From the NCBI GenBank assembly GCA_030692055.1, contig JAUYCY010000095.1, positions 1-46,745 of the forward strand: a stretch of 46,745 bases of DNA, given 5' to 3'. Source of the stretch: Candidatus Omnitrophota bacterium (GTDB lineage Bacteria; Omnitrophota; Koll11; Duberdicusellales; 4484-171). The notes under the pieces were generated by a model. That model worked only from the letters and a program-made list of their open reading frames with translations. It was not told where the DNA came from and did not search any database. Numbering within the stretch: position 1 is the first letter of the stretch; each line of letters begins with the position of its first letter. The position numbers and the translations under genes were made by a program. Below are positions 9,851 through 46,690 of this stretch, in pieces.

Positions 9851-10618
9851 ATGAATATGAGTTACAAAATATTTTTGTGCATTCGCGGCGTTAAACCTGA
9901 GCCTTTCCCGCCAAAGGCGGGTCTGCCAAGGTATGATAAAGCGGGGATTAATGGTGCGCCGCTTGGTATTAGCCATACTGAAACCTCGGGCTTTGGTTCG
10001 ACTACGCCCATTCGACTTACTTCGTTCGCTCAGGGCTGTCCTGAGCGTAGTCGAGGGACGCTCACCATTCCTTCGAACCATCCTGAGCATGGTCGAAGGA
10101 TTAGCCCGAGGAGCTGTGGAAGGCTTCATTTTCTTATATTGAATATTTCTTTATTGGTAGGCATTTTTCCTTTGGCAGTATTTCCGGAAGATCTTTGCCA
10201 ATACCTAAGCCAACAGGGTGGGTTAAATTCCAATAAGCCTATCGCGGCCGGAGATTATATTTACCAGCGCAGTATAATTTTTCAGGCTCAGACTCGCAGC
10301 AAACCCGTTTCTATAGAAATTTCTTATACCTACCAAAGTATAGACAGCGATAGTATAACAATAAAATATCAGCGTATTGAGAAAAAGAAATGGGGAGAAG
10401 ATTTCGTAAGTTTTAGAGAACCGGTAGAGGATATTATTGACCTACCATTTAATAAGGATAAACAGGCGACCCTACGAATAAAAGAAGAACCTTTAGGAAA
10501 TTATGTAGTCCAGAATAATATGGGGGGTGTCGTAGAAGGCCTCTGCAGCAACGAACCCGGCATAAATGTACTTCTTTCCATTGATAACGATAAGCGCCTA
10601 ACTGTTAAAAATCAATAA
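9851..10618 (+). CDS. Secreted hypothetical protein with repeat-encoded N-terminal insertion
   Basis: 255 aa. A very strong ribosome binding site (AAGGAGG about 8 bases before ATG 9851) starts the frame. After MNMSYKIFLCI about 80 residues are encoded by nested palindromic repeats (9885-10132). Only then does a hydrophobic export segment appear (FLILNISLLVGIFPLAVF), followed by a mature domain starting near EDLCQYL. The mature part (about 110-255) is beta-rich and contains cysteines. Probably the original signal peptide began near the present start and was split by the repeats; whether the protein is still exported is doubtful. No family recognised. Confidence 0.55.
   Translation: MNMSYKIFLCIRGVKPEPFPPKAGLPRYDKAGINGAPLGISHTETSGFGSTTPIRLTSFAQGCPERSRGTLTIPSNHPEHGRRISPRSCGRLHFLILNISLLVGIFPLAVFPEDLCQYLSQQGGLNSNKPIAAGDYIYQRSIIFQAQTRSKPVSIEISYTYQSIDSDSITIKYQRIEKKKWGEDFVSFREPVEDIIDLPFNKDKQATLRIKEEPLGNYVVQNNMGGVVEGLCSNEPGINVLLSIDNDKRLTVKNQ
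9885..10132 (+). repeat. Nested structured repeats inside a coding region
   Basis: The outer element matches the copy at about 11950-12045 (GGTGCGCCGCTTGGTATTAG, then CATxCTGAAACCTCGGGCTT). Its GGGCTTTAGCCC hairpin loop is split by about 106 bases (9995-10100) rich in TTCGAC/GTCGAA palindromes, whose relative lies at 10665-10769. The order of events is therefore outer element first, inner element second. Confidence 0.7.
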
Positions 10619-10664
10619 GATTAAAAGAAGCTTTCTCAACTTTATGGCAGAAATTTTTCATAAC

Positions 10665-10769
10665 TAATGGTTCGACTGCGCCCATTCGACTCACTTCGTT
10701 CGCTCAGGGCTGTCCTGAGCGCAGTCGAAGGACGCTCACCATTAGCGCTGAGCGAAGTCGAGTGCTAAT
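10665..10769 (+). repeat. TTCGACTGCG palindromic repeat
   Basis: TTCGACTGCG pairs with CGCAGTCGAA, with an inner hairpin GCTCAGG/CCTGAGC. The unit is bounded by AATGG near 10666 and CACCATT near 10737-10743, then a second half reading AGCGCTGAGCGAAGTCGAGT. It is the second copy of the sequence nested in the gene at 9851. Confidence 0.65.
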
Positions 10770-11088
10770 TATAAATCAAGAAGTTATCTCTTGTAACCAT
10801 TTTTTTAAAGTCTTTGTATTAACCGGAAAAATGCGGTTGTCAGGATAAAACTGCCGTAATGATAAGAAACGTTTGTGGTTATGAAAAAACTTTGGCGTAG
10901 CAATTGGTGCGCCGTATTTTTCCTGGTTACCTCGGCGTGACTGCAATTTGCCTGAAATTTCTACCGAAATTTCAGGGTAAATTCCAGCGCCGACCCGTAG
11001 TCCAACAGGACACCCTGCTGGGTTAAGAAAGCTTCTGAAGGTTCTTTCCAATTACACAAAAGGTGGGAGAGAGAACCGTCAAAAGCTA
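10770..11088. other. Gene-poor stretch with a perfect hairpin
   Basis: CCTGAAATTTC (10951-10961) pairs perfectly with GAAATTTCAGG (10966-10976). The reverse strand is open from 11051 to 10776 and ends in protein-like text (FYPDNRIFPVNTKTLKKWLQ). It has no ribosome binding site and is crossed by the hairpin, so at most it is a gene remnant. Nothing else is supported. Confidence 0.4.
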
Positions 11089-11116
11089 TTGACACAATAA
11101 ATAAGGGTGTTATATT
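11089..11116 (+). promoter_or_regulatory. Sigma70-type promoter
   Basis: TTGACA at 11089-11094, a 16-base spacer and TATATT at 11111-11116, followed by GGGGAGG and ATG 11140. This is a strong match with an ordinary leader and ribosome binding site. Confidence 0.7.
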
Positions 11117-11139
11117 AAATATAAAAGGGGAGGTGCACG

Positions 11140-11622
11140 ATGAAAAGCGGTAAAATACTGAATCTATTGGGGCTCGTTTTATTTATTTTAGGTATTATAG
11201 GTTTAGCTGCCAGTTTCTCTTTCACTAAAGAATATAAAGAGAAAATAACATTACTAGAGAAGCAAGGTAATATTGTAAACGGAAAAATTGATGATTTTAG
11301 AATTAGCCGAGATAACTTTCAGGCATCTCTATCATCTATAAAGAGCGATAACGAAACCAACACTACATCGATGAAAGAATTATTATCTAAGGTGGAAGCA
11401 GTTGAAGGAGAGAAAAAAAATATTCTAGCAAAAATAGAAACGCTTACAAAAGATATTCAAGATTTACAAAAACAGTACGCAATCGTTTTGGATGAGCTTA
11501 AAGTAAAGATGGATAATCTTAAAACTTCTATCAGCGCAATGAAGCAAGACGCAAGCGCAAAAGTAGATTTAGGGCAAATTTCTGTCGAGAAGCAAGAGCC
11601 ACTAAAGCAAAGACAGAACTAA
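11140..11622 (+). CDS. Membrane-anchored coiled-coil protein
   Basis: 160 aa: one N-terminal membrane segment (about 8-27, LLGLVLFILGIIGLAASF) followed by a long heptad-rich helix (about 30-140) with the pattern expected of a coiled coil, and a short tail. A strong ribosome binding site and a near-consensus promoter support a well-expressed single gene. The topology suggests a periplasmic or cytoplasmic rod tethered to the inner membrane. No specific family recognised. Confidence 0.75.
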   Translation: MKSGKILNLLGLVLFILGIIGLAASFSFTKEYKEKITLLEKQGNIVNGKIDDFRISRDNFQASLSSIKSDNETNTTSMKELLSKVEAVEGEKKNILAKIETLTKDIQDLQKQYAIVLDELKVKMDNLKTSISAMKQDASAKVDLGQISVEKQEPLKQRQN

Positions 11623-11644
11623 CCGTTAACCCCATCAATAATTA

Positions 11645-12160
11645 AACCCAAGTTTTGCGTTAGCAAAACAGTCCCGACATATCGTCGGGACAATTGGGTT
11701 CAGCGCTTTTTTACAGAATGTTTTTTCCATACTTATTCTTTTAGGTTACGAAAAGGCCTTATTTTCTACTTAAGGCAATGCTGGAACCAATATTTTAAAC
11801 TAACTTTGCTTACGCAAAGATTGGTTACAACCATTGGTTCTGTTTGAAAATACACGCATTTTGCATTAGCTGAAAGTATTTATACATTCACGGCGCTTCC
11901 CGATGATGTCGGGATTTCGCTTATTATCGTATTAAGGTGTTCAAAAATCTGCGGCGTTCATGCCGCGGATTATATGGTGCGCCGCTTGGTATTAGCCATG
12001 CTGAAACCTCGGGCTTTAGCCCGAGGAGCTATGGGAAGGCTTCATTTCCTAAAAAGGCTTGTGACTTTTTCTTACGTTTGTCTTTACGCATATCCTATTA
12101 TGTAACAAAGAATTGCACGATTTCCATAACAACCTAATGTAAGGTCTCGGTTAAAGCACA
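11645..12160. repeat. Composite structured repeat, copy A (with nested element)
   Basis: It starts with a three-way-junction unit: AACCCAA (11645-11651) with TTGGGTT (11694-11700), enclosing GTTTTGC/GCAAAAC and GTCCCGAC/GTCGGGAC hairpins. A block at 11773-11879 (GGCAATGCTGGAACCAATAT, ending near GCATTAG) recurs inverted at 14087-14192. A block at 12060-12160 (TGACTTTTTCTTACG to CCATAACAACCTAATG) recurs at 16654-16760 and 46610-46690. Between them, at about 11890-12045, lies a copy of the element found in the gene at 9851. No gene is supported here. Confidence 0.65.
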
Positions 12161-15027: not shown

Positions 15028-15091
15028 TTTTTATGGTATAGGAAAGTATACCCTAAAGGGCACAAGTAAAACTTTCCTATACCACTGAAAA
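15028..15091 (-). repeat. 64-bp structured repeat (inverted copy of 46411-46473)
   Basis: GGTATAGGAAAGT pairs with ACTTTCCTATACC, enclosing a small CCCT/AGGG hairpin. The reverse complement matches 46411-46473 almost base for base. It follows the regulator gene and could act as a transcript end in either direction. Confidence 0.7.
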
Positions 15092-16469: not shown

Positions 16470-16534
16470 TTTTATTGTTGTTAGGTATTTATAAATATAA
16501 GAACTAAGATATACCAAAGCGTTTCCGTGCCTTT

Positions 16535-16760
16535 GAACCCAATCTTTGCGTTAGCAAAGAGCGCCGCAGGCGCTACTATTGGGTCCACCATTGAATTTAA
16601 CTGAGAATATAAGCGTTTCGCATTAGATAAAAGTTTTTCTTTCGTAAAAACCTTTGTAACTTTTTCTTACGTTTAAAGTTATACAAACCTCTTGTTTAAC
16701 AAGAAGTTGCATAGTTTCCATAACAAGCTAATGCACAATTTCGGTTGAACAGTTAAAACG
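16535..16760. repeat. Composite structured repeat, copy C (most compact)
   Basis: It begins with a three-way-junction unit: ACCCAAT (16537-16543) with ATTGGGT (16578-16584), enclosing CTTTGC/GCAAAG and GCGCC/GGCGC hairpins. Then come CTGAGAATATAAGCGTTTCG and GCATTAG (16620-16626) pairing with CTAATGC (16728-16734). About 225 bp long, it appears uninterrupted, unlike copies A (11645) and D (46265). The gene-free stretch 16470-16859 is essentially this element. Confidence 0.7.
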
Positions 16761-24656: not shown

Positions 24657-24970
24657 ATGATGAAAGCTGTAATCATTTATTATTCCCGGGGCGGGGTAAC
24701 GAAACAAATGGCAGAGATTATCTATAAAGAAATAAGAAGCAGAGATGTAGAGGCGGATATTTTTTCCGTAGAAGAAGTTAAACCAAAACAGCTTCTGGAT
24801 TATGACGGTATTATTATTGGTTCGCCTACTTATTACGGAACACTAGCGGCACAGATAAAGAAGCTTTTAGATGATAGCGTTTCCTTCCATGGTAAACTTG
24901 ACGGTAAGGTAGGTATGGCTTTTTCCTCAGCTGCTAATATTGCCGGAGGCAATGAAACTACGCTTACTTC
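24657..24970 (+). pseudogene. Flavodoxin/WrbA-like protein, 5' part, interrupted by element
   Basis: From ATG 24657, 8-9 bases after AGGAGG. It encodes VIIYYSRGGVTKQMAEII (FMN phosphate loop), IIIGSPTYYGTLAAQIK and GKVGMAFSSAANIAGGNETT, the first two thirds of a short-chain flavodoxin. The native frame stops being flavodoxin-like after TLTS at 24970; the next nine codons before TAG come from the inserted element. The missing third is at 31252-31414. Flavodoxins carry FMN and shuttle electrons or reduce quinones. The gene is probably co-transcribed with the macroglobulin gene. Confidence 0.85.
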
Positions 24971-25179
24971 AACCCCCAATGGTTTTCGATATTCTTAGCT
25001 TTAATATTGAGGAGTCATTAGCTTTTGCTAAATAACCACCCCAAATATCACTCTCAACCATAAACCCCTAAGTAACCCTAAGTCCCATCAATGTACCCTA
25101 TAGTTACTATGATTACTATAACTACTCTTTACTATCTCCTCTCATTATCTCTCCTCTTTCAGAAATTTTAAAAATCTTC

Positions 25180-25210
25180 TTGACAAAGAAATAAAAAGAG
25201 ATAGTATATT
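25180..25210 (+). promoter_or_regulatory. Promoter at the left end of the element
   Basis: TTGACA at 25180-25185, with TAGTAT (25202-25207, 16-base spacer) or TATATT (25205-25210, 19-base spacer) as -10 box. It would transcribe leader copy 1 and the 162-aa protein. The 210 bases before it (24971-25179) hold no gene; they include CCCTAAGTAACCCTAAGT-like and TTACTATGATTACTATAA-like direct repeats that may be recombinase-binding DNA. Confidence 0.55.
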
Positions 25211-25229
25211 CCTACAATTTGGTTTTGGT

Positions 25230-25298
25230 GTAAAGGCAAACGTTTTGATAAACGGTAAATCCTGAGATTTGAAGAAGGTCTCAGGACTTTTTATTTTT
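25230..25298 (+). ncRNA. Structured leader RNA with intrinsic terminator, copy 1
   Basis: GTAAAGGCAAACGTTTTGAT then AAACGGTAAATCC, with a CGTTT/AAACG stem, runs into a terminator: TCCTGAGA (25260-25267) with TCTCAGGA (25279-25286), then CTTTTTATTTTT. The next ATG (25299) follows at once. A second copy is at 25827. The arrangement is that of an attenuator or riboswitch-like leader. No known class was recognised. Confidence 0.5.
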
Positions 25299-25787
25299 AT
25301 GGGCAGAAAATTCGGCTCTGTAGATAGTTACAAAAGAAACAACGAAAATTATCGGGGTAGACTTCTGGGTGCGAAAGACCGCCAAAGGAGAGATGGCTTT
25401 GCTCATTGGTTGATAAACGAAGATGAAAGACTGAAAAAGCTTGAAAGTTCTTTATCTGACCATAGTAAGTTATTTTGGCGAATTGAGTATTTATCCCAGT
25501 TAATTGGGTGGAAAGTTCCGTCTTCCAAAAGATATCGCTTTAGACTTCCTAAGTACTATTACCTGCAAACGTCTATAATAGATGCTTCCTTGCGTCTTGC
25601 TTTTGGCAAGAATTATCTAAGGTATTTAAAAAGGCTGATTGAATTGGGTTACCACGACCCTTTAACTCCAGAGGATATAATAGATATAGGTAAGAATAAC
25701 AAAAGGGCGAGGCTTTTTAAAGAAACAGTTGAAAAAGAGCTGAAAGAGCTAATTCAAAAGCTCAAATGTGAAAAAGCCTCAAATTAG
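25299..25787 (+). CDS. Basic hypothetical protein of the element
   Basis: 162 aa from ATG 25299, just after the leader terminator; a TTG at 25269 lies inside the terminator stem and is unlikely. The protein is strongly basic (MGRKFGSVDSYKRNNENYRG, KDRQRRDGFAHWLINEDERL) and mostly helical, with a C-terminal charged helix. No family was recognised. Position behind a regulated-looking leader at the element's left end, together with its charge, would fit a DNA- or RNA-binding role; that is inference. No ribosome binding site is seen. Confidence 0.55.
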   Translation: MGRKFGSVDSYKRNNENYRGRLLGAKDRQRRDGFAHWLINEDERLKKLESSLSDHSKLFWRIEYLSQLIGWKVPSSKRYRFRLPKYYYLQTSIIDASLRLAFGKNYLRYLKRLIELGYHDPLTPEDIIDIGKNNKRARLFKETVEKELKELIQKLKCEKASN

Positions 25788-25824
25788 AATAATTCTAAAA
25801 AAGCCCCAAAATAGAATAATTTAG
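25771..25824 (+). repeat. Two tandem 27-bp direct repeats
   Basis: AAAAAGCCTCAAATTAGAAT at 25771 recurs as AAAAAGCCCCAAAATAGAAT at 25798, both followed by AATT. The first copy contains the stop codon of the preceding gene. They lie directly before leader copy 2. Confidence 0.6.
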
Positions 25825-25826
25825 CT

Positions 25827-25902
25827 GTAACGGGCAAGCGTTAAAAAACGGTAAATCCCAGCTTACCAAGTGTTATTGGTGGGTTGGGATTTTTTATTTA
25901 TT
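25827..25902 (+). ncRNA. Structured leader RNA with intrinsic terminator, copy 2
   Basis: GTAACGGGCAAGCGTTAAAA then AACGGTAAATCC shares with copy 1 the GGCAANCGTT...AACGGTAAATCC core. The terminator stem differs completely: ATCCCA...TGGGAT enclosing CTTACCA/TTGGTGGG, then TTTTTTATTTATT. Conserved core plus diverged but still paired terminator suggests a functional RNA. The nearest downstream gene start is at 26265. Confidence 0.5.
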
Positions 25903-26150
25903 AGATATAAGAAATGTCAAACGTTTATAATAATGGGTCTGGAAAAAGATTTTTAAGAAACAGATTTGAGAGATATATACTCTAATTAACTCTTCGGAGA
26001 GGGAAACTCTAAAACCTCTAAATCTCTAAACCTCAAATATCTTTTAATAGAGGTTAAAGAGGTAATGGTATATGAAAGTAAAAAGCAATATTTCCTTTAA
26101 AAAAGAGAAATAGACAATGGGACAGTTCTTTTGTGAATTAATGCATATAT

Positions 26151-26228
26151 ACTACCTACCGAAAGGTAGTTTAGCCCCATCTTTTCACCGGGGAGAAGTA
26201 GAGGACTTATCAAACTCTGCTTCTCCCC
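26151..26228 (+). other. Hairpins in the 477-base gap before the resolvase region
   Basis: ACTACC/GGTAGT (26151-26170) and GGGGAGAAG (26190-26198) with CTTCTCCCC (26220-26228), extended by AGAG/CTCT. AT-rich direct words such as CCTCTAAATCTCTAAACCTC surround them (26000-26080). The region could contain resolvase binding sites or transcript-end hairpins; neither is demonstrated. Otherwise 25903-26264 shows nothing. Confidence 0.35.
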
Positions 26229-26264
26229 TTTGTATTCTTAAAGATAAAGAGGAATTTAAGACTT

Positions 26265-26408
26265 ATGTTTAAAACCTTAACTCGAATACCCTTTAAGTTA
26301 CATAACCTCGATACCTCTAGAGTACCAAAGCAGGACGAAAGATATGCAAGGAGAAAGATTAGACAAAGTTCTTTACAGCTTGCAGATAGCATAATAAAAA
26401 TATCCTAA
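26265..26408 (+). CDS. Possible 47-aa basic peptide
   Basis: ATG 26265 opens a 47-codon frame with many basic residues (MFKTLTRIPFKLHNLDTSRV, then RYARRKIRQSSLQLADSI). AGAGGAA lies about 10-13 bases upstream. The stop at 26406-26408 sits at a TATCCT-AAG-AGGATA hairpin. No family recognised; its size makes coding status uncertain. Confidence 0.3.
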   Translation: MFKTLTRIPFKLHNLDTSRVPKQDERYARRKIRQSSLQLADSIIKIS

Positions 26409-26455
26409 GAGGATATAAAGAGTTATCAGACAAGTTATAAGGGGAGGTAAAAGAT

Positions 26456-27064
26456 ATGGAAGAGAAAAAGATTTGTTTTTATAGCCGAGTATCCACAGAC
26501 AGGCAGAACCTCGACAACCAGCTGATATGTTTTCAGACCTATGCTAAGCAGAATAATATCCCCATAGATGATTGCTTAAGCTTTTCAGACATAACGAGTG
26601 GCATCTATTCCAATAGACCTCAGCTTGATGAAATGCGAGAGGCTATTTACAGACAAGAGATAAAGACTTTGATAATTTGGAAATTGGATAGACTAGGCAG
26701 AAGTCTTCGGGACTTGCTTAACTGGTTTGACCTTCTCCAAAAGTACAATATAACTTTTATCAGCTTGACGGATGGTATAGATACGACAACGGCTTCAGGA
26801 AAACTAATGTTTAGTATATTGGGTTCTATTGCAGAATTTGAAAGAAGCTTGCTACAAGAAAGGACTTCTTTGGCAATGGAGAGGCGTAAAGCTCTGGGCT
26901 TAGCTGTGGGACGACCTCTTGGCTGTAAAGACAAAAGAAAGAGAAGAGTCAAAGGGTATATCCAAAGGCACCTGCGGGATACAAAAAAGCGACAGTTATT
27001 GTTTGGGGATAAAATCCCTAATAAATTCACGTCTTTGGTTTCCTTACAGCCAGAGAAAATCTAG
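26456..27064 (+). CDS. Small serine recombinase (resolvase/invertase family)
   Basis: 202 aa with GGGGAGG nine bases before the ATG. The catalytic domain is intact: FYSRVSTDRQN with nucleophile Ser13, KLDRLGRSLRDL, TASGKLMFSILGSIAEFERS and a linking helix ending QERTSLAMERRKALG. After GRPLG the usual HTH_7 DNA-binding end is replaced by a very basic tail (KDKRKRRVKGYIQRHLRDTK). It could resolve or invert sites within the element, or help the large recombinase. It begins the main rightward gene run of the element. Confidence 0.9.
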   Translation: MEEKKICFYSRVSTDRQNLDNQLICFQTYAKQNNIPIDDCLSFSDITSGIYSNRPQLDEMREAIYRQEIKTLIIWKLDRLGRSLRDLLNWFDLLQKYNITFISLTDGIDTTTASGKLMFSILGSIAEFERSLLQERTSLAMERRKALGLAVGRPLGCKDKRKRRVKGYIQRHLRDTKKRQLLFGDKIPNKFTSLVSLQPEKI

Positions 27065-27101
27065 GCTGAATATACGAAACTTATTACGAGGACAAGAGCT
27101 T

Positions 27102-27123
27102 ATATCCTCTTTAAAGAGGATAT
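27102..27123. repeat. Perfect 22-bp palindrome
   Basis: ATATCCTCTTT followed by AAAGAGGATAT (27102-27123), perfectly symmetric. It lies between the resolvase and the 42-aa zinc protein and could be a dimer-binding operator or a resolvase site. Similar AGGATAT words flank the resolvase on its left (26401-26416). Confidence 0.55.
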
Positions 27124-27145
27124 ACCTAGAGGACAAAGGCAAAAG

Positions 27146-27274
27146 ATGAGATGTACCAAATGCAAAAAGATAATCTTAGATGAGGACTATGCTTTAGACT
27201 ATTGTATACATTGTGGCGAGGATATAAAAGAGCTAGAGGTTTCAGACTTAGACAATGAAGAGGTGATTGAATGA
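27146..27274 (+). CDS. Small zinc-ribbon protein (42 aa)
   Basis: MRCTKCKKIILDEDYALDYC followed by IHCG gives two CxxC pairs (Cys3/Cys6 and Cys20/Cys23), the pattern of a minimal zinc ribbon. An acidic tail (IKELEVSDLDNEEVIE) follows. The stop overlaps the next frame by ATGA. It is one of two tiny zinc-ribbon genes in the element. The role is unknown; such proteins often bind nucleic acid or partner proteins. Confidence 0.55.
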   Translation: MRCTKCKKIILDEDYALDYCIHCGEDIKELEVSDLDNEEVIE

Positions 27275-27534
27275 GCAAAAGTCCTGATAGGTCTCCGTAC
27301 CCGATTATTATTGGTGCGAAGTTTTTTATAGTAGACATATTACGCAACGTAAAAAGTATATATGCTCGATTTCGGACGAGCATAGTAATACCTAAAGTCG
27401 AAGCAGGAGAGGGGCGTAATCAATATCTCTTAGTACCTCCTTGGATTTCGCTCTTCTCTTGCTCTTTAAAAAAGGAGAGGCTTAATGATTACAGATGTAG
27501 AACTCACAATTATAGTCAGTACCTTATTAGATAA
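27271..27534 (+). CDS. Hypothetical protein, uncertain
   Basis: 87 aa starting in a four-base overlap with the zinc-ribbon gene (ATGA). The text MSKSPDRSPYPIIIGAKFF then IVDILRNVKSIYARF is not recognisable. The second half overlaps the better supported gene at 27485 in another frame, so the reading beyond about residue 70 is doubtful. The frame may be shorter, decayed or accidental. Confidence 0.3.
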   Translation: MSKSPDRSPYPIIIGAKFFIVDILRNVKSIYARFRTSIVIPKVEAGEGRNQYLLVPPWISLFSCSLKKERLNDYRCRTHNYSQYLIR

Positions 27535-27664
27535 ACTATTGCCAGAAATGAAGAAAGGAATATCCAAAATCATACAACAAGATGTTCTAGAGTTAATTGA
27601 CAAAAGGTTAGAACAGTTGAACTACTGGTATCTGCGTACAGAAAATCACAACACGAGGTTTTAA
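27485..27664 (+). CDS. Small helical hypothetical protein (59 aa)
   Basis: AAAAAGGAGAGG stands 5-6 bases before ATG 27485, one of the best ribosome binding sites in the element. The peptide MITDVELTIIVSTLLDKLLP then KKGISKIIQQDVLELIDKRL is a regular amphipathic helix pattern. Its TAA directly abuts the GTG of the next gene, which suggests translational coupling. No family recognised. Confidence 0.6.
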   Translation: MITDVELTIIVSTLLDKLLPEMKKGISKIIQQDVLELIDKRLEQLNYWYLRTENHNTRF

Positions 27665-27991
27665 GTGGACAATTCCTTACGCAAAGAGATAGAACGGCAA
27701 ATTAAGTTACAGGCAAGGGCAATATACGGAGAACCGAAAGGCAGTACCACAAAGAAATACAGTCAAGTGCCTAATGAAATTCATTTTGAAGTCATAAAAT
27801 TTTGCCAGTCCAAGCGAACTAGATGTACCTGCTGTAATGGGTGTGGCAGTAATTTAAAGAAATACAGTCAACCGTCAAAACTCTACTCCAAAAAGTTTCA
27901 GGAAACTACGGACTATCAAATACGAAAGTTGATGTCCATAGGTTTCAGCAGAGATAGGGCAGTAATGGAATTACTTAAAGAGGAGGCTTAA
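27665..27991 (+). CDS. Cysteine-cluster hypothetical protein
   Basis: 108 aa from GTG 27665, immediately after the previous stop, so coupled translation is likely. The sequence is basic with a compact cysteine cluster (TRCTCCNGCGSN) near 58-66 that could bind a metal. A helical C-terminus follows (YQIRKLMSIGFSRDRAVMEL), which resembles a small UBA-like or HTH helix pair. No family recognised. The next gene's ribosome binding site (GAGGAGG) overlaps its end. Confidence 0.55.
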   Translation: MDNSLRKEIERQIKLQARAIYGEPKGSTTKKYSQVPNEIHFEVIKFCQSKRTRCTCCNGCGSNLKKYSQPSKLYSKKFQETTDYQIRKLMSIGFSRDRAVMELLKEEA

Positions 27992-27993
27992 AG

Positions 27994-28305
27994 GTGGCAA
28001 CGTTACAGCACAAAAGCAATGGCGAGCTTAAAAAGCTCCGCCAAAGATTATCCATTGAAGTCAAGAAAAAAGAAAATTCAGAAAAAGTGGCAAAAAGCTT
28101 ATTGGGAACGATAAGATGTAAAGACACGTCAAGTTGGCAAAACAGGAGGTTTAAGATGTCGATAGGAAATCTAGAAGGCAAAACCAAAGCCGAATTACAG
28201 GAACTCAGAAACGAGCTAATTCTGAAAGGTCGGCTCAGCGCAGACGAGAGCGTTAAAATATTGGCAGAAATCCAAAGACGTATAGACGGTTCTCTTTGGA
28301 CGTAA
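27994..28305 (+). CDS. Hypothetical protein of two similar halves
   Basis: 103 aa from GTG 27994 with GAGGAGG about 8 bases upstream. The halves resemble each other (KSNGELKKLRQRLSIEV near 7-23 and KTKAELQELRNELILKG near 63-79), so the gene arose by duplication. A second strong ribosome binding site (AGGAGG) precedes an in-frame ATG at 28156, which would yield the second half alone (49 aa). The protein is helical and charged. Function unknown. Confidence 0.55.
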   Translation: MATLQHKSNGELKKLRQRLSIEVKKKENSEKVAKSLLGTIRCKDTSSWQNRRFKMSIGNLEGKTKAELQELRNELILKGRLSADESVKILAEIQRRIDGSLWT

Positions 28306-28327
28306 AAAAAAAATCGGAGGTAAAAAA

Positions 28328-28690
28328 ATGGCAGATTTCTTATTAAGAGTTTCAATTCCAGGTCAGGCAAATACTCCTTCAGCAATAGCATTATTGGAAA
28401 GCGTATTACAAAAGAACTTTCCTGGCTGTTCAGTTGAAGTACAGGATGACGCAACAAATTCAGACATACAGGCGTCTGATGATGAAGCAAGAAAAGAGGA
28501 TAAATCTTTAGAAACAATGAGAGACCAAAAAAGAGTCCAGCAATACAATGAACAAATAGGAAGAATGATAGACAAAATCCCTGATGGCGAGCTTCCTAGT
28601 CATTATCAATATGCATCCCCAGACGTTAGATATTTTAAAAAGTACGAGTTGGCAGTTGAAGAGTTATCAAGGAGAGGAGAGCAAATATGA
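28328..28690 (+). CDS. Hypothetical protein of the element
   Basis: 120 aa with CGGAGG seven bases before the ATG. The N-terminal part (MADFLLRVSIPGQANTPSAI, then ALLESVLQKNFPG) looks alpha/beta. An acidic linker follows (DIQASDDEARKEDKS), then a helical C-terminus. It overlaps the next gene by ATGA, so the two are coupled. No family recognised. Confidence 0.6.
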   Translation: MADFLLRVSIPGQANTPSAIALLESVLQKNFPGCSVEVQDDATNSDIQASDDEARKEDKSLETMRDQKRVQQYNEQIGRMIDKIPDGELPSHYQYASPDVRYFKKYELAVEELSRRGEQI

Positions 28691-29133
28691 TTTCAGCCAA
28701 AAAATTAGACTTAGAGAAAATCTCTGTTCTAGAAATTGACAAGAGGTTGGTTGAACTCAGTAAAAAAATCCGAGAAATGAGAGAATTTGTAGAAGAGGAA
28801 AAAAGTTTAAAAGACCTTAAAGAGGCAATTTTTTTACTCCTTGAGTTTAAAGCAAAGGCAAATTCCTCTATCGGGACAGAACAGGGCAGAAGGATTTATC
28901 GGGTCTTGAGCAATTACCCTCTACTGGCAATGAGTAAAAAGTGGCAGGGGGTTTCTCGGCTTGTTTCCGCTTATCAAGCTGATAAAGAATTGGAGTTTTA
29001 CGCTAACGAGGCAGAAGAGTGGCTCAAAGCAAGTGCATGGGGACGAAAAATGGCGGTTGCTCTTGCTCCTTTCCTAAAGGAAGAGAAAATTGACAGCATA
29101 CAGAACAAAGAAGTATCAAGGGTTACAGCATAA
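28687..29133 (+). CDS. Helical hypothetical protein of the element
   Basis: 148 aa, starting in a four-base overlap with the previous gene. It is almost wholly helical, with a charged N-terminal half (KRLVELSKKIREMREFVEEE) and a C-terminal half containing ISRxxxAY-like helices (KKWQGVSRLVSAYQADKELE). No signal peptide or TM segment. No family recognised; the pairing with the upstream gene suggests a shared function. Confidence 0.6.
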   Translation: MISAKKLDLEKISVLEIDKRLVELSKKIREMREFVEEEKSLKDLKEAIFLLLEFKAKANSSIGTEQGRRIYRVLSNYPLLAMSKKWQGVSRLVSAYQADKELEFYANEAEEWLKASAWGRKMAVALAPFLKEEKIDSIQNKEVSRVTA

Positions 29134-29267
29134 CCACAGCAGTCTTGCGTTCTATGATACTTAACCGTATATTTATACTTCTTGATAGTGTTATGGGAAA
29201 TTTCAGTAAGTCCTTTAGTCTCAGTTTAGCAAAAAAAGAGTTTAAAAAATGGGGGTCTTAAGCAGAG

Positions 29268-29429
29268 ATGTATAGCCCGAAAATTCGTGAAGAGTTAATC
29301 TCAAAGCTGTATGTTATTGGCAAGCGTAAAGGCAAATCAATGACTGCAATAGTGGATGAATTCTTGCGAATTGCAATAGAAAAAGAGGAAAGGGAATATA
29401 AGTTTGCGAAAGAACGTTTAAGTAAGTAA
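29268..29429 (+). CDS. Ribbon-helix-helix-like small regulator (53 aa)
   Basis: MYSPKIREELISKLYVIGKR then KGKSMTAIVDEFLRIAIEKE matches the pattern of CopG/Arc-type RHH proteins: a short N-terminal strand, helix A, the turn with GKSMT, and helix B. Such proteins bind DNA as dimers and often repress mobile-element genes. A long hairpin (29434-29470) follows the stop. GGGGG lies upstream but is not an ideal ribosome binding site. It is the likeliest regulator of the recombinase region. Confidence 0.6.
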   Translation: MYSPKIREELISKLYVIGKRKGKSMTAIVDEFLRIAIEKEEREYKFAKERLSK

Positions 29430-29433
29430 AATT

Positions 29434-29470
29434 CTTTACTTCTTTACCTCTAAAGAGGTAAAGAGTAAAG
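29434..29470. repeat. Long hairpin/palindrome before the recombinase genes
   Basis: CTTTACCTCT (29442-29451) pairs with AGAGGTAAAG (29454-29463), and CTTTACT (29434-29440) with AGTAAAG (29464-29470), giving a 17-bp stem with one bulge. It may be an operator for the RHH protein just upstream or a transcript-end hairpin; there is no T-run. Confidence 0.5.
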
Positions 29471-29504
29471 GCTATGAGGTTTGTAAGCGTAAGGAGGGTT
29501 AAAT

Positions 29505-29666
29505 ATAGAAACAGAAAACAAAAAGCTTTACAAAACTTTCCAGTGTGGGATTTGTAAAAGGACTTTGTCTGAAAAGCATTTCAAAAGGTTGCTAGGAATA
29601 TCCGAAACTGTTTTGATTAGGGTTTGTGATGAATGTGATAAGACTTTAGGTAAAAAGGAGGGCTAA
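29505..29666 (+). CDS. Small zinc-ribbon protein with apparent ATA start
   Basis: An open frame of 53 codons encodes two CxxC pairs (QCGICKRTLSEKHF and RVCDECDKTLGK). It ends with TAA directly before the recombinase ATG. The only codon at the right distance from a perfect AGGAGGG (29492-29498) is ATA at 29505; no ATG, GTG or TTG lies between the site and the first cysteines. Either AUA is used, as in a few known genes, or ATG was mutated or misread. Close coupling to the recombinase suggests a role with it. Confidence 0.5.
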   Translation: METENKKLYKTFQCGICKRTLSEKHFKRLLGISETVLIRVCDECDKTLGKKEG

Positions 29667-31259
29667 ATGGGCTATTTGGCTGATTGTATAATTTATCCAA
29701 GAGTAAGTACCCTAAAGCAAAAAGAAGGTTCTAGTCCACAAGAGCAAATAAAATCTGGCATTGAGTATTGCAAAAAGAAAGGTTGGACATACAAGATTGT
29801 TGATGATGATTTAGGCTTTTCGGCAAGTTCACCTCGTCTTGAGGATAGAGCTGGTTTAACAAAAATAGTAGATTGGGCAGAAGATAAGCTATTTAAGTTT
29901 TTCTTTGTTCAGGAATATGATAGATTTACAAGAAATCCAATAGTAGAGGAATTTGTAAAAGTGGTATTTAGGGACAATGGAATAAAGATAATTACTCCGT
30001 TTCAGGAATTTGATTTAGAAAAAGATGAGGATGACTTTCTGAGTGCACTTTTAGGCTTGCTTGCTAAGAGGGAAAATAAACGAAGGATTAGGGGTTTTAA
30101 GGCAGGCAAGAAAGGGTCAAGAGAAAAAGGGTTATATTGTGGTGGAGTATTACCGTTAGGTTATACCACAAATGATGCAGAGAAATATAAAAATTTTATA
30201 GTAAATCCAAAGACAGCACCACTTTATCGTAGGATAGTGGCAGAGTATTTAAAGGGTATTTCGTCTGCTGGTCTTGCAGAGAAGTTCAATAAAGAAGGAA
30301 TTCCATCAGTAAAATCCTCTTGGAAATTTAAAAATTCTCGGGTTGTCAAATGGACAGGTGGGGCAATTAGGGATATTTTGAAAAATAAATTTTATCTTGG
30401 TAAAGTTATAGAAGGCAGGCAAGTCATACCACCGTTAATCTCTCAAGAAGAGTGGCAAAGAGTTCAAAAAAGGCTTGCGGTTTCAGCTAAAAGAACAGGA
30501 CCGTCGGGGACAAAGATTTTTCTATTGAGGGACTTACTTTGGTGTGCTAAATGTGGGGTTAGAATTAAAGGAAGGACTTTTTTTAGCGAGACGAAAAAGA
30601 CTCCAGCCCATTGGATTAGGCAATATTTCTGTTCTGGGCGTATAACCTTTAGGGATTATCGTGGAAGATATGAGGTTTGTAAATTGCCTTTAATAGATAT
30701 GGATAAATTAGATGCTTTAGTTTGGAATAGATTGTCTATGTACCTGCTTAATGTAGACGAGCTAAAAAAAGAGCTTCAAAAGCCATTTGAAAAAGACGAT
30801 ACCCAAAAGATAAAAGAAAGGGTATTAGATTTAGAAGGTGAGCTTAAAAGGTTACAGCAAGGTAGAAATGACGTCTTAGGTATGTTAGGTTCAGGTTATT
30901 GGAGTAAAGACGAAGTAGAGAAAAAGGCTGAAGAAGTAATGGCTACCATATCTGAAAAGGAAATCCAACTATCTCAACTAAAGGATAAAGTAGAAGGTGA
31001 GAAAGAACTAGAGTATTCCTTGCTTAGTCTTAGGGAAATCTCCAAGCAAGTAAAAGATACCTTGTGGAAATTTACCATTGAGCAAAAAAGAGAATTGGTG
31101 CTAAAGACAGTTAAAAAGATAAAAATTGATTTTGCTGAAGAAAATGAGGAAACCTCAATAAGTGGCATAAAAGTTGATATTGCGTTTGAAGTTGATATAA
31201 TGGAGTTGCGTAATCACTTTGAGTTAAAGCAGAGACCACAACTATCCTTTCGATTTTAG
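29667..31259 (+). CDS. Large serine recombinase (integrase)
   Basis: 530 aa. The resolvase domain is at 1-150 with YPRVSTLKQ (nucleophile Ser14), EYDRFTRN, and an RENKRRIRGF linking helix. The Recombinase domain (about 165-270) includes KTAPLYRRIVAEYLKGISSAG and RDILKNKFYLGKV. A zinc ribbon (CAKCG near 293, later cysteines near 325 and 344) and a coiled coil (about 375-450) follow. All parts of a TnpX/phiC31-type integrase are present. It lies at the right edge of the element it presumably integrates, and its last codons run into the attachment site: the stop TAG belongs to the interrupted flavodoxin gene. Confidence 0.95.
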   Translation: MGYLADCIIYPRVSTLKQKEGSSPQEQIKSGIEYCKKKGWTYKIVDDDLGFSASSPRLEDRAGLTKIVDWAEDKLFKFFFVQEYDRFTRNPIVEEFVKVVFRDNGIKIITPFQEFDLEKDEDDFLSALLGLLAKRENKRRIRGFKAGKKGSREKGLYCGGVLPLGYTTNDAEKYKNFIVNPKTAPLYRRIVAEYLKGISSAGLAEKFNKEGIPSVKSSWKFKNSRVVKWTGGAIRDILKNKFYLGKVIEGRQVIPPLISQEEWQRVQKRLAVSAKRTGPSGTKIFLLRDLLWCAKCGVRIKGRTFFSETKKTPAHWIRQYFCSGRITFRDYRGRYEVCKLPLIDMDKLDALVWNRLSMYLLNVDELKKELQKPFEKDDTQKIKERVLDLEGELKRLQQGRNDVLGMLGSGYWSKDEVEKKAEEVMATISEKEIQLSQLKDKVEGEKELEYSLLSLREISKQVKDTLWKFTIEQKRELVLKTVKKIKIDFAEENEETSISGIKVDIAFEVDIMELRNHFELKQRPQLSFRF

Positions 31260-31414
31260 AAGCAATGCTTATACATGGTATGATTATCCAGGGTGACTTC
31301 AAGGGTGATCATTATGGGCCCGTAGCTATCGGTAAAGTTGACAAACGATGCGAGGATAACTGCAGGAGAATGGCGGAAAGGTTCGTGGAACTTTTAGAAA
31401 CGCATAGCGCATAG
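31252..31414 (+). pseudogene. Flavodoxin/WrbA-like protein, 3' part, separated by element
   Basis: From 31253 the flavodoxin frame reads ILEAMLIHGMIIQGDFKGDH, then YGPVAIGKVDKRCEDNCRRM and a helix ending ELLETHSA before TAG 31412-31414. This is the missing C-terminal third of the gene at 24657. Rejoined at TTC, the product is 158 aa, normal for the family. On its own it has no start site. A large imperfect palindrome overlaps its end. Confidence 0.85.
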
Positions 31415-31509: not shown

Positions 31510-31836
31510 ATGGCTATAGTAGTACTTGTTACTATTCCTGAAAAAGAAGCAGAAAATTTATCGAAGATGTTAGTGCAGGAAAGAGTGTGTGCTTGCGTCA
31601 ATATTGTCAAAGGTGTTAAATCTTTCTTTTGGTGGGAAGGCAAGATTGACGAAGCCCAGGAGGCAATACTTATCATTAAAACTAAGGATTCGTTATTTGG
31701 CAAGCTAAAGACACTTATTAAAAATAATCATTCTTACAGTGTGCCGGAAATTATTTCGTTTAAGATAGACCAGATAAATCAAGAGTATCTTGAATGGTTA
31801 AATAAGGAAGCAAATGCTACTACATTTTCTACTTGA
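31510..31836 (+). CDS. cutA: Divalent-cation tolerance protein CutA
   Basis: 108 aa, full length for CutA1. Diagnostic text is VLVTIPEKEAENLSKMLVQE, ERVCACVNIVKGVKSFFWWE and AILIIKTKDSLFGKLK. CutA1 forms a very stable cytoplasmic trimer, structurally like PII, linked to copper and other metal tolerance; its exact role is unsettled. GGGGG lies nine bases before the ATG. The last residues (ATTFST) extend slightly past the usual end, next to a repeat region. Confidence 0.95.
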   Translation: MAIVVLVTIPEKEAENLSKMLVQERVCACVNIVKGVKSFFWWEGKIDEAQEAILIIKTKDSLFGKLKTLIKNNHSYSVPEIISFKIDQINQEYLEWLNKEANATTFST

Positions 31837-32071: not shown

Positions 32072-32776
32072 ATGTTTTTTGATTTTCTCATTCATTTAGA
32101 AAAAGTTTTTAATTCTTCGCCGCTTTTAGGCTTAGGCGCCAGCTTCATTGCGGGGATACTGGTGAGTTTTTCTCCCTGCATACTGCCTTTAGTTCCCATA
32201 ACCTTAAGTATTGTCGGCGCAACCTCTGTTTCTTCGCGCCTGAGAGGTTTTTCTATTAGCTTAATTTTTGTTTTAGGAGTATCTACTGTATATACTACCC
32301 TAGGGATAATCGCCTCACTTTTAGGGGTATTTTTAAATAAATTTTTTCTTAACCCATTTATTCTTCTTTTTTTAAGTGCCGTATTTATTTTTTTAGGGCT
32401 TTCTCTTTTTGATATTATTAAGCTAAGATTTTTTTCGTTCTCTTACGATTATAGCCCCAAAAAGACTTTACTTTCGATTTTTATCTTAGGCTTAATCAGC
32501 GGATTTGCCCTTATTCCCTGCAATTTTCCGGTTTTAGGCTCAATTCTAAGCTTAATTTCTTTAAAAAAAGATGTTTTATATGGCGCGATTGCGCTTTTTC
32601 TTTTTTCTCTCGGCTATGGCGTAATTTTAATTATTTTAGGGACTTTTACTTCCTTAATCCGCCGATTGCCAAAGACAGGCTTATCGCTTATAATCGCAAG
32701 ACGGTTTCTCGGGGTTATATTGATAAGTATGGGTGTCTATTTCTTTTTAAAATTTATTTTATTAATAATAAGATGA
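32072..32776 (+). CDS. ccdA: Cytochrome c biogenesis/thiol transporter CcdA (DsbD TM domain)
   Basis: 234 aa with six TM segments. The two family cysteines are in SPCILPLVPITLSI (near 37) and ALIPCNFPVLGSI (near 150), on the helices that exchange electrons across the membrane. CcdA takes reducing power from cytoplasmic thioredoxin and passes it to periplasmic thiol proteins. The next gene, overlapping by ATGA, encodes a periplasmic CPYC thioredoxin, its likely acceptor. No Shine-Dalgarno site is seen; the ATG follows a palindromic repeat closely. Confidence 0.92.
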   Translation: MFFDFLIHLEKVFNSSPLLGLGASFIAGILVSFSPCILPLVPITLSIVGATSVSSRLRGFSISLIFVLGVSTVYTTLGIIASLLGVFLNKFFLNPFILLFLSAVFIFLGLSLFDIIKLRFFSFSYDYSPKKTLLSIFILGLISGFALIPCNFPVLGSILSLISLKKDVLYGAIALFLFSLGYGVILIILGTFTSLIRRLPKTGLSLIIARRFLGVILISMGVYFFLKFILLIIR

Positions 32777-45418: not shown

Positions 45419-46324
45419 ATGCGAAATAAACAAAAATTTAGTCAAAAGAGCTTAGTTAACTATTTCGTAAAGGCATGTGTTTTATTCTTGTTATTGTGTA
45501 TGAGCTCGTGTGCCTATCGGCCAAAAATTACTATTGTGCAGCTACCTCCCGAAGTAGAAAAAATTATAATTACTCCGGAAAAAAATACGATTGTGCCAGG
45601 AGAGAGGCTGTCGTATGCGGTAGATTGGCACGGTATCTATGCCGGCGAAATTATCCTTTTGGTTAAGGAGATCGTTAAATTTAATGACCGTGAATGTTAT
45701 CATATAATAGCACAGGCGCATCCCACTGGTTTATTCCGTATGTTTTATAATGTGAAGTATTTTGTTGAAACTTATATTGATAAAGATTTAAACCGGCCTT
45801 TAAAGTTTTATAAAAAGAAATTGTTCAAGAAGAAAGTAACGGAGGAGACGATAAATTTTGATTATCACCGTAACGTTGCAGTGTGGGAATGCACCGGTAA
45901 AAAGAGTATAGAGATCTCGCTACCCAAAGACGCCCAGGATTTACTTTCCAGTTTATATTATTTTCGCCTGGAAAACCTCACCTTAGGCCAAGAGTATCCA
46001 ATTAATATCGTCTATAACGGAAAAATCTGGGCATTGAACGCGAAGATTGATACTTTACAAATGGTAAAAATGCACCAAGTAGCTAATATTAAAGCATTTG
46101 CGGTGAAATTAAGTTCTAAGCTCTCAGAGTATATTACCGGAGAAGAAAAGATAAAAATATATTTTAGTATGAAATCTAAACATACACCTTTATTTTTTAA
46201 TATTCGTACTAAAGTAGGAAGATTAATGGGTGTATTGAGAGATATGCCAAAAGAAGAAACTAATGAACCCAACCTTTGCGTTAGCAAAGAGCGCCGCAGG
46301 CGCACTCATTGGGTCCACCATTGA
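45419..46324 (+). CDS. DUF3108 lipoprotein with repeat-derived C-terminus
   Basis: 301 aa. The signal peptide (about 16-31) ends in LLCMSSC, so the mature protein starts at a lipidated cysteine. The domain from about 55 to 280 matches DUF3108: LSYAVDWHGIYAGEIILLVK, FYNVKYFVETYIDKD, FYKKKLFKKK, LSSLYYFRLENLTLGQEYPI. DUF3108 proteins are envelope beta-sheet proteins of unknown role, found mainly in Gram-negatives. The last 20 or so residues (NEPNLCVSKERRRRTHWVHH) are encoded by the start of a structured repeat at 46265, so the native stop was lost or displaced. Confidence 0.85.
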   Translation: MRNKQKFSQKSLVNYFVKACVLFLLLCMSSCAYRPKITIVQLPPEVEKIIITPEKNTIVPGERLSYAVDWHGIYAGEIILLVKEIVKFNDRECYHIIAQAHPTGLFRMFYNVKYFVETYIDKDLNRPLKFYKKKLFKKKVTEETINFDYHRNVAVWECTGKKSIEISLPKDAQDLLSSLYYFRLENLTLGQEYPINIVYNGKIWALNAKIDTLQMVKMHQVANIKAFAVKLSSKLSEYITGEEKIKIYFSMKSKHTPLFFNIRTKVGRLMGVLRDMPKEETNEPNLCVSKERRRRTHWVHH

Positions 46325-46690
46325 ATTTGACTGAGAATATAAGCATTTCACAATAGAGAAAACATTTTATTTCGCAAGAAAATTACCTTCGGTAATGACT
46401 ATTTAGGTTATTTTCAGTGGTTAGGAAAGTTTTACTTGTGCCCGTTAGGGTATACTTTCCTATACCATAAAAAGCTTTGTAGTTTTTTCTTGCGGTATAG
46501 GAAAGTATAAAAATGCGTCGTGGTAATGTGGATAGTTCACCTCTGTGTCGAAAGCTACCGCAAGGAAGTTCAAGGTTGTGAGCTTGCCAACTTCGTTGGT
46601 AAGTGAACTTTCTTACCTTGTGAATACATAATAACCTATTATCTCACAAAACATTATCGATTACTATAACAGCCTAATGCAGGTAACGCA
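46265..46690. repeat. Composite structured repeat, copy D (with nested element)
   Basis: Begins with ACCCAA/TTGGGT enclosing CTTTGC/GCAAAG and GCGCC/GGCGC, like 16535, then CTGAGAATATAAGCATTTCA. The block GATTACTATAACAGCCTAATGC (about 46658-46680) is the counterpart of 16710-16734. Between them lie the 63-bp unit at 46411-46473, which is the inverse of 15028-15091, and a hairpin CTTGCCAAC/GTTGGTAAG within AAGTTCA/TGAACTT (about 46567-46613). No gene is supported from 46325 to the window end. Confidence 0.65.

Follow-up and report, generated by a model that had tools for sequence, protein, structure and literature searches.

Restoration of a split gene by excision of a mobile genetic element is known elsewhere, according to passages of PMC8987985. 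Among the genes interrupted in cyanobacteria, the relevant part of one survey (PMC4874684) names flv3B and an NADPH-dependent FMN reductase, and it places a recombinase that lies in the same orientation at the beginning of the interrupting element. In mycobacteriophage BPs, as far as the account in PMC4557955 is drawn on here, attP is located inside the repressor gene and the switch is integration-dependent. Finally, large serine recombinases (LSRs) with defined sites are wanted as genome-engineering tools, a point made in part of the LSR survey in PMC10083194. Here we describe an element in a 46,745-nucleotide stretch of DNA from an uncultured Candidatus Omnitrophota bacterium (the window, comprising positions 1 to 46,745 of contig JAUYCY010000095.1, assembly GCA_030692055.1). 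With a probability of roughly 0.87, we consider it to be a 6,281-bp integrative mobile element that was inserted by its own LSR into a flavodoxin-like gene of the Omnitrophota host.

The flavodoxin-like gene is split by the element. Its N-terminal fragment (24657..24998, plus strand, with FMN_red/Flavodoxin similarity) ends at a stop codon following the element-encoded residues TSTPNGFRYS; the host DNA in this fragment reaches approximately 24958-24961, and element sequence lies beyond. The C-terminal fragment (31238..31414, plus strand), located by comparison of the two ends and by tblastn, runs from TTILSILEAM on. The N-terminal part at 24657-24971 and the C-terminal part at 31238-31411, which are offset by 6,281 bp, form one flavodoxin-like or FMN-reductase protein, and in-frame rejoining across this distance yields 158 residues. 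Residues 101-158 of the corrected join map to 31238-31411 with 100% identity in tblastn, a result that locates the pieces and gives no independent support, the query having been built from these same flanks. An initial annotation of the window, made from the sequence alone, had proposed a flavodoxin gene split by an element of about 6.28 kb and rejoining to an in-frame 158-residue protein. Both points hold, with the 6,281-bp offset of the halves and an LSR at the right end of the insert. The same annotation ended the homology after TLTS and started the C-terminal part at ILEAM, and these details have to be revised, since the right end still encodes TTILS.

The flavodoxin-like protein has 6,107 database matches, and all homologue counts given here rest on the 120 that were listed. 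In each of these 120 the sequence continues without a break through the junction. The best of them, from a named Omnitrophota, is 89% identical; the organism names, where given, are Omnitrophota or Omnitrophica, and the products are named NAD(P)H-dependent oxidoreductase, NAD(P)H dehydrogenase (quinone), or flavodoxin family protein. The rejoined protein retains all 63 near-invariant columns. It has two rare residues, where the 120 homologues range from 1 to 12, and averaged over 59 homologues it lies at a distance of 0.226, close to the value for its nearest relative (0.230). By these measures neither half of the gene is decayed, which implies that either the insertion is recent or excision is continuing.

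An empty site, for which the initial annotation had suggested a search in related genomes, is indeed present. In all 14 fetched Omnitrophota loci the two gene halves are adjacent. The unoccupied gene is adjoined downstream by cutA in nine of these loci, and in eight the DsbD/CcdA-type gene is found there as well, as in the window, where cutA occupies 31510..31836 and the gene for the DsbD/CcdA-type membrane protein 32072..32776, both on the plus strand. Neither gene was seen downstream in five loci (L002, L005, L012-L014). Two overlapping sets of genomes were also searched, 42 genomes of the order at E <= 1e-10 and 384 genomes of the phylum at E <= 1e-20. Matches were found in 24 of the 42 genomes; in 23 the match is continuous across the junction, and in G389 it is truncated by the end of a contig. 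In the phylum sample, 120 genomes match at 121 places, each listed match being continuous through the junction. No other copy broken at the junction was found among these 120 of 384 genomes, in searches that might overlook a break at another position in the gene, or a half so diverged that it falls below the cutoffs.

The target gene is seemingly dispensable, because 264 of the 384 Omnitrophota genomes have no flavodoxin-like match at E <= 1e-20 and a flavodoxin-like copy is decayed in genome G025 (locus L083, contig G025:C39), where it has an internal deletion and has lost its frame. The short match in G025 was also considered as a possible insertion, and this was rejected in view of the internal deletion and the broken frame. 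Another flavodoxin-like gene precedes the decayed copy by a few hundred bases. In a further genome, G262, the flavodoxin-like match carries one in-frame stop.

The position of the junction was analyzed by comparing the two ends of the element in register, at the offset of 6,281. Cuts after 24956-24962 produce GGNETTILSILEAM, the family form of the empty site. Cuts after 24963-24965 produce TLLS, a cut after 24966 produces TLIS, and cuts after 24967-24972 produce TLTS. Among the 120 homologues, TILSILEA occurs in 57, TVLSILEA in 32, TLLSILEA in one, and TLTS in none; the fetched loci L071 and L072 likewise read TLLS, and there is no shared dinucleotide within the cuts at 24963-24965 that give this form. 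Judged from its codons (ACA ACT ATC CTT TCG), the segment 31238-31252 is host sequence encoding TTILS. The trinucleotide TTC, on which the initial annotation had based the junction, is indeed shared by both ends (24968-70 and 31249-51). Its role as the core is rejected given the TTILS codons at the right end and the lack of TLTS in the 120 homologues, and the sharing is probably due to chance. On this reading of the empty site as GGNETTILSILEAM, the junction joining TLTS to ILEAM is approximately 10 bp off.

Five dinucleotides are shared in register between 24945 and 24975, at 24947, 24957, 24960, 24968, and 24969, and two of them, AC at 24957-58 and AC at 24960-61, fall inside the interval permitted by the family form. 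With the core at 24957, the rebuilt attP and attB each have 12 of 25 complementary positions, while the remaining four shared dinucleotides give at most eight. Random pairs have a mean of 6.5 complementary positions, and 1.5% of them reach 12 (p about 0.015 for each site). We infer that the best core is AC at 24957-58 = 31238-39, since it is the sole shared dinucleotide with dyad symmetry in both rebuilt sites. Thus the candidate attL core is 24957..24958 and the candidate attR core 31238..31239, the latter identical to it in register, with alternatives at 24960-24961 and 31241-31242, respectively. The integrated element, including one core copy, would then occupy 24959..31239 on the plus strand.

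The LSR gene (29667..31259, plus strand) lies at the right end and encodes an integrase of 530 residues in the integrated state, its last codons and stop being host DNA. Three Pfam domains were identified in the protein, Resolvase (4.3e-16), Recombinase (3.5e-15), and Zn_ribbon_recom (7.9e-7), and it matches the integrase family phrog_95 at 1.3e-78 over 498 residues. It is similar in sequence to the integrases of the TP901-1 and A118 structures, and alignment with the former shows R12, S14, R61, D85, R86, and R89, which we take to be the catalytic residues. The LSR is apparently intact. Its nearest NCBIfam models are CcrB, at 72 bits (cutoff 900), and XisF, at 70.7 bits (cutoff 375). A strong match was found in one of the 384 Omnitrophota genomes, G154, at a contig start and running into a gap, and no flavodoxin match was found in that genome. 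All LSR matches in phage and plasmid records are below 60% identity, the rows listed being at 23-27%, and two relatives of the LSR stand at 23%.

Taken with the empty site in relatives, these domains agree with the earlier suggestion that the locus holds a minimal integrative element carrying its own large serine integrase. We propose that the LSR would have recombined attP of a circular form of the element with attB in the host gene, the target being the conserved coding stretch GGNETT^ILSILEAM of the flavodoxin-like oxidoreductase gene, with strand exchange probably at the AC core. The insertion would be recent and would have inactivated a dispensable gene, and the small open reading frames (ORFs) of the element could provide accessory functions. 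Several observations weigh against this interpretation. The dyad test was applied post hoc and is weak, as position 24973, which is not shared by the two ends, scores 12 and 10 in it. The DNA comparisons, among them those with phage and plasmid records, revealed no relative of the whole element that would confirm its boundaries, and neither the circle junction for TTC nor the junctions for the AC core were found in viral contigs, the sole collection searched for them. The closest LSR relative is 46% identical, among the 7,998 candidates with the most shared words that were scored.

The reading frame of the LSR extends across the attachment site on the right. In the integrated state it ends in ...RPQLSFRF, of which QLSFRF and the stop come from host DNA, whereas in the rebuilt circle the frame runs on for 25 residues to a total of 549, ending in ...RPLRLLQPPMVFDILSFNIEESLAFAK. 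Integration therefore changes the C-terminus of the element's own integrase, from 549 residues in the rebuilt circle to 530. An open tail of 25 codons is, by estimate, not improbable by chance. It is conceivable, if improbable, that an attachment site in the integrase gene works as a two-way switch, where replacement of the 25-residue tail by six host residues would alter stability or directionality of the protein, and excision would bring back the flavodoxin together with the long form of the integrase. If the tail swap does affect activity, the element would itself encode a simple means of controlling the directionality of its serine integrase.

LSRs in two other Omnitrophota genomes, at L053 (G007:C8) and L052 (G341:C16), adjoin the C-terminal part of dprA, and the LSR frame overlaps it. 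The dprA fragments are backed by Pfam; the N-terminal parts and the far element ends were not located at either locus. Both proteins are only distantly related to the LSR of the window (E about 1e-43 to 1e-45). From these two cases, layouts with attP in the integrase gene may recur in Omnitrophota. A 544-residue ORF near the G007 LSR, taken by eye for a terminase, had no Pfam match and was dropped.

The G+C content of the element is 34-38% per kb, similar to that of the flanks, and the ORFs tabulated for it are all on the plus strand. Eight of them were compared with Pfam and NCBIfam, ten with PHROGs, and nine with PADLOC, some short ORFs standing outside these sets. The first ORF (25299..25787, 162 residues from ATG) has no family match; its sole match in the protein database is an identical protein, and it was not found in the five genomes searched. 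The database entry of the identical protein comprises two sequences, the longest contig being 9,252 bp, and may reflect another copy of the element. Further downstream, a small serine recombinase of 202 residues (26456..27064) has a resolvase/invertase catalytic domain (Pfam Resolvase, 4e-40; phrog_125, 1.9e-44). Its gene matched five plasmids and is the sole part of the element with a plasmid DNA match, and it also contains the one match, of 91 bp, obtained with a 4,690-bp query of element DNA. One relative of this recombinase stands at 37%.

The other ORFs are small. The 42-residue ORF at 27146..27274 has two CxxC motifs and a weak match (E 0.0015) to phrog_27132, a phage family of unknown function. 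It is followed by five ORFs of unknown function, at 27485..27664 (59 residues), 27665..27991 (108 residues), 27994..28305 (at most 103 residues, with an inner ATG at 28156 after aggagg and a HEPN_Swt1 similarity, E 0.0071, below the cutoff), 28328..28690 (120 residues), and 28687..29133 (148 residues). The 53-residue ORF at 29268..29429, weakly similar to Arc-like repressors (E 0.07), is by its size alone a candidate regulator or directionality factor. No relaxase or transfer, replication, or cargo family was recognized among the ORFs given to the family databases, in agreement with what had been noted for the element from the outset. For two ORFs of unknown function, no relative was confirmed in viral contigs, and a title-level literature search found no publication on this element.

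Two copies of a leader-like motif (AACGGTAAATCC) flank the first ORF. Copy 1 (25229..25292, plus strand) lies just before its ATG and ends in a terminator-like hairpin, right after which the ORF starts with no visible ribosome-binding site. Copy 2 (25829..25895, plus strand) follows the ORF and has a stronger hairpin (z -5.1). A riboswitch was considered for the AACGGTAAATCC leader and rejected, Rfam giving just two sub-threshold matches to microRNA families. A pattern matching both copies was found in none of the 42 genomes of the order, and its three matches in viral contigs look like chance. Outside the element, repeat families were observed at 9951-12079, 16534-16650 / 46264-46380, and 15028-15079 / 46422-46473, and among them are two inverted 52-bp copies that lie 31 kb from each other and are 98% complementary.

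The gene content bears on what kind of element this is. It could be a phage satellite, or what is left of a larger prophage or conjugative element after loss of all but the integrase and small early genes, a possibility that we regard as doubtful, though well ahead of the other alternatives. The two serine recombinases, the colinear arrangement of the small genes, most of them with Shine-Dalgarno-like sequences by eye, and the weak Arc-like repressor would all suit such an origin. Set against them, none of the ORFs given to Pfam, NCBIfam, and PHROGs matched a family for structural proteins, packaging, relaxases, or replication, and the ten given to PHROGs yielded only integrase, invertase, and transposase families, a weak similarity to Arc-like repressors, and families of unknown function; moreover, the element has no DNA similarity in phage records, and its five plasmid matches are confined to the small recombinase gene. 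That the window is an assembly chimera, an unrelated element having been placed between two gene fragments, is very improbable. The upstream alpha-2-macroglobulin gene has no counterpart in the flavodoxin loci that were fetched (upstream DNA is short in some of them), and this would fit a chimera; yet the halves stand at both ends in the correct order and frame, their rejoining gives the family form, the LSR is at one end of the insert, and downstream synteny is kept in eight of the 14 loci.

The initial annotation had also raised an excision switch. Under this reading, the flavodoxin gene would normally retain the element and would become functional again when it leaves, either in response to some condition or in part of the population, much as with skin, the nif elements, and the comK prophage. 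The restoration would be precise and in frame, the undecayed halves (63 of 63 near-invariant positions kept, two rare residues) would suit such a switch, and both the LSR and the small recombinase have complete catalytic domains. A recent insertion explains the missing decay equally well, however, and the target looks dispensable from its absence among the matches in 264 of 384 genomes and its decay in G025. There is also no sign of vertical retention, no second copy broken here having been found in the searched genomes; with the XisF model the score is 71 bits, far short of the cutoff of 375 bits; and the LSR, in the same orientation, is at the end of the element, the reverse of the placement given in the consulted part of the cyanobacterial survey (PMC4874684). 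We therefore consider a developmentally excised switch unlikely and prefer integration of a mobile element by its own LSR.

Under this preferred explanation, the element is seemingly an ordinary piece of mobile DNA of a known kind, the change of the integrase tail being the new and unusual detail. Its value lies in providing, for a phylum that has been little studied, a compact LSR element whose attP/attB pair has been rebuilt. It resembles the gene-disrupting LSR elements described in the part of PMC10083194 considered here in having an LSR near its end, a conserved coding site, an empty site in relatives, and a short putative core shared by the ends, but differs from the elements surveyed there by its very small size, lack of recognized cargo, distant integrase, and Omnitrophota host. 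With the cyanobacterial fdxN/XisF-type elements, as portrayed in the pertinent passages of PMC4874684, it shares a redox gene split in frame and a serine recombinase inside the element, whereas its recombinase is, for its orientation, at the other end and far below the XisF cutoff, and recurrence was not found in relatives. As in mycobacteriophage BPs, to judge from the relevant portion of PMC4557955, the attachment site is inside an ORF of the element and integration alters the C-terminus of the element's protein; unlike in BPs, the altered protein is a serine integrase rather than a repressor. Finally, the dprA-adjoining LSRs of the two other Omnitrophota genomes resemble it in that their frame, too, overlaps the interrupted gene where the right end of the element meets host DNA.

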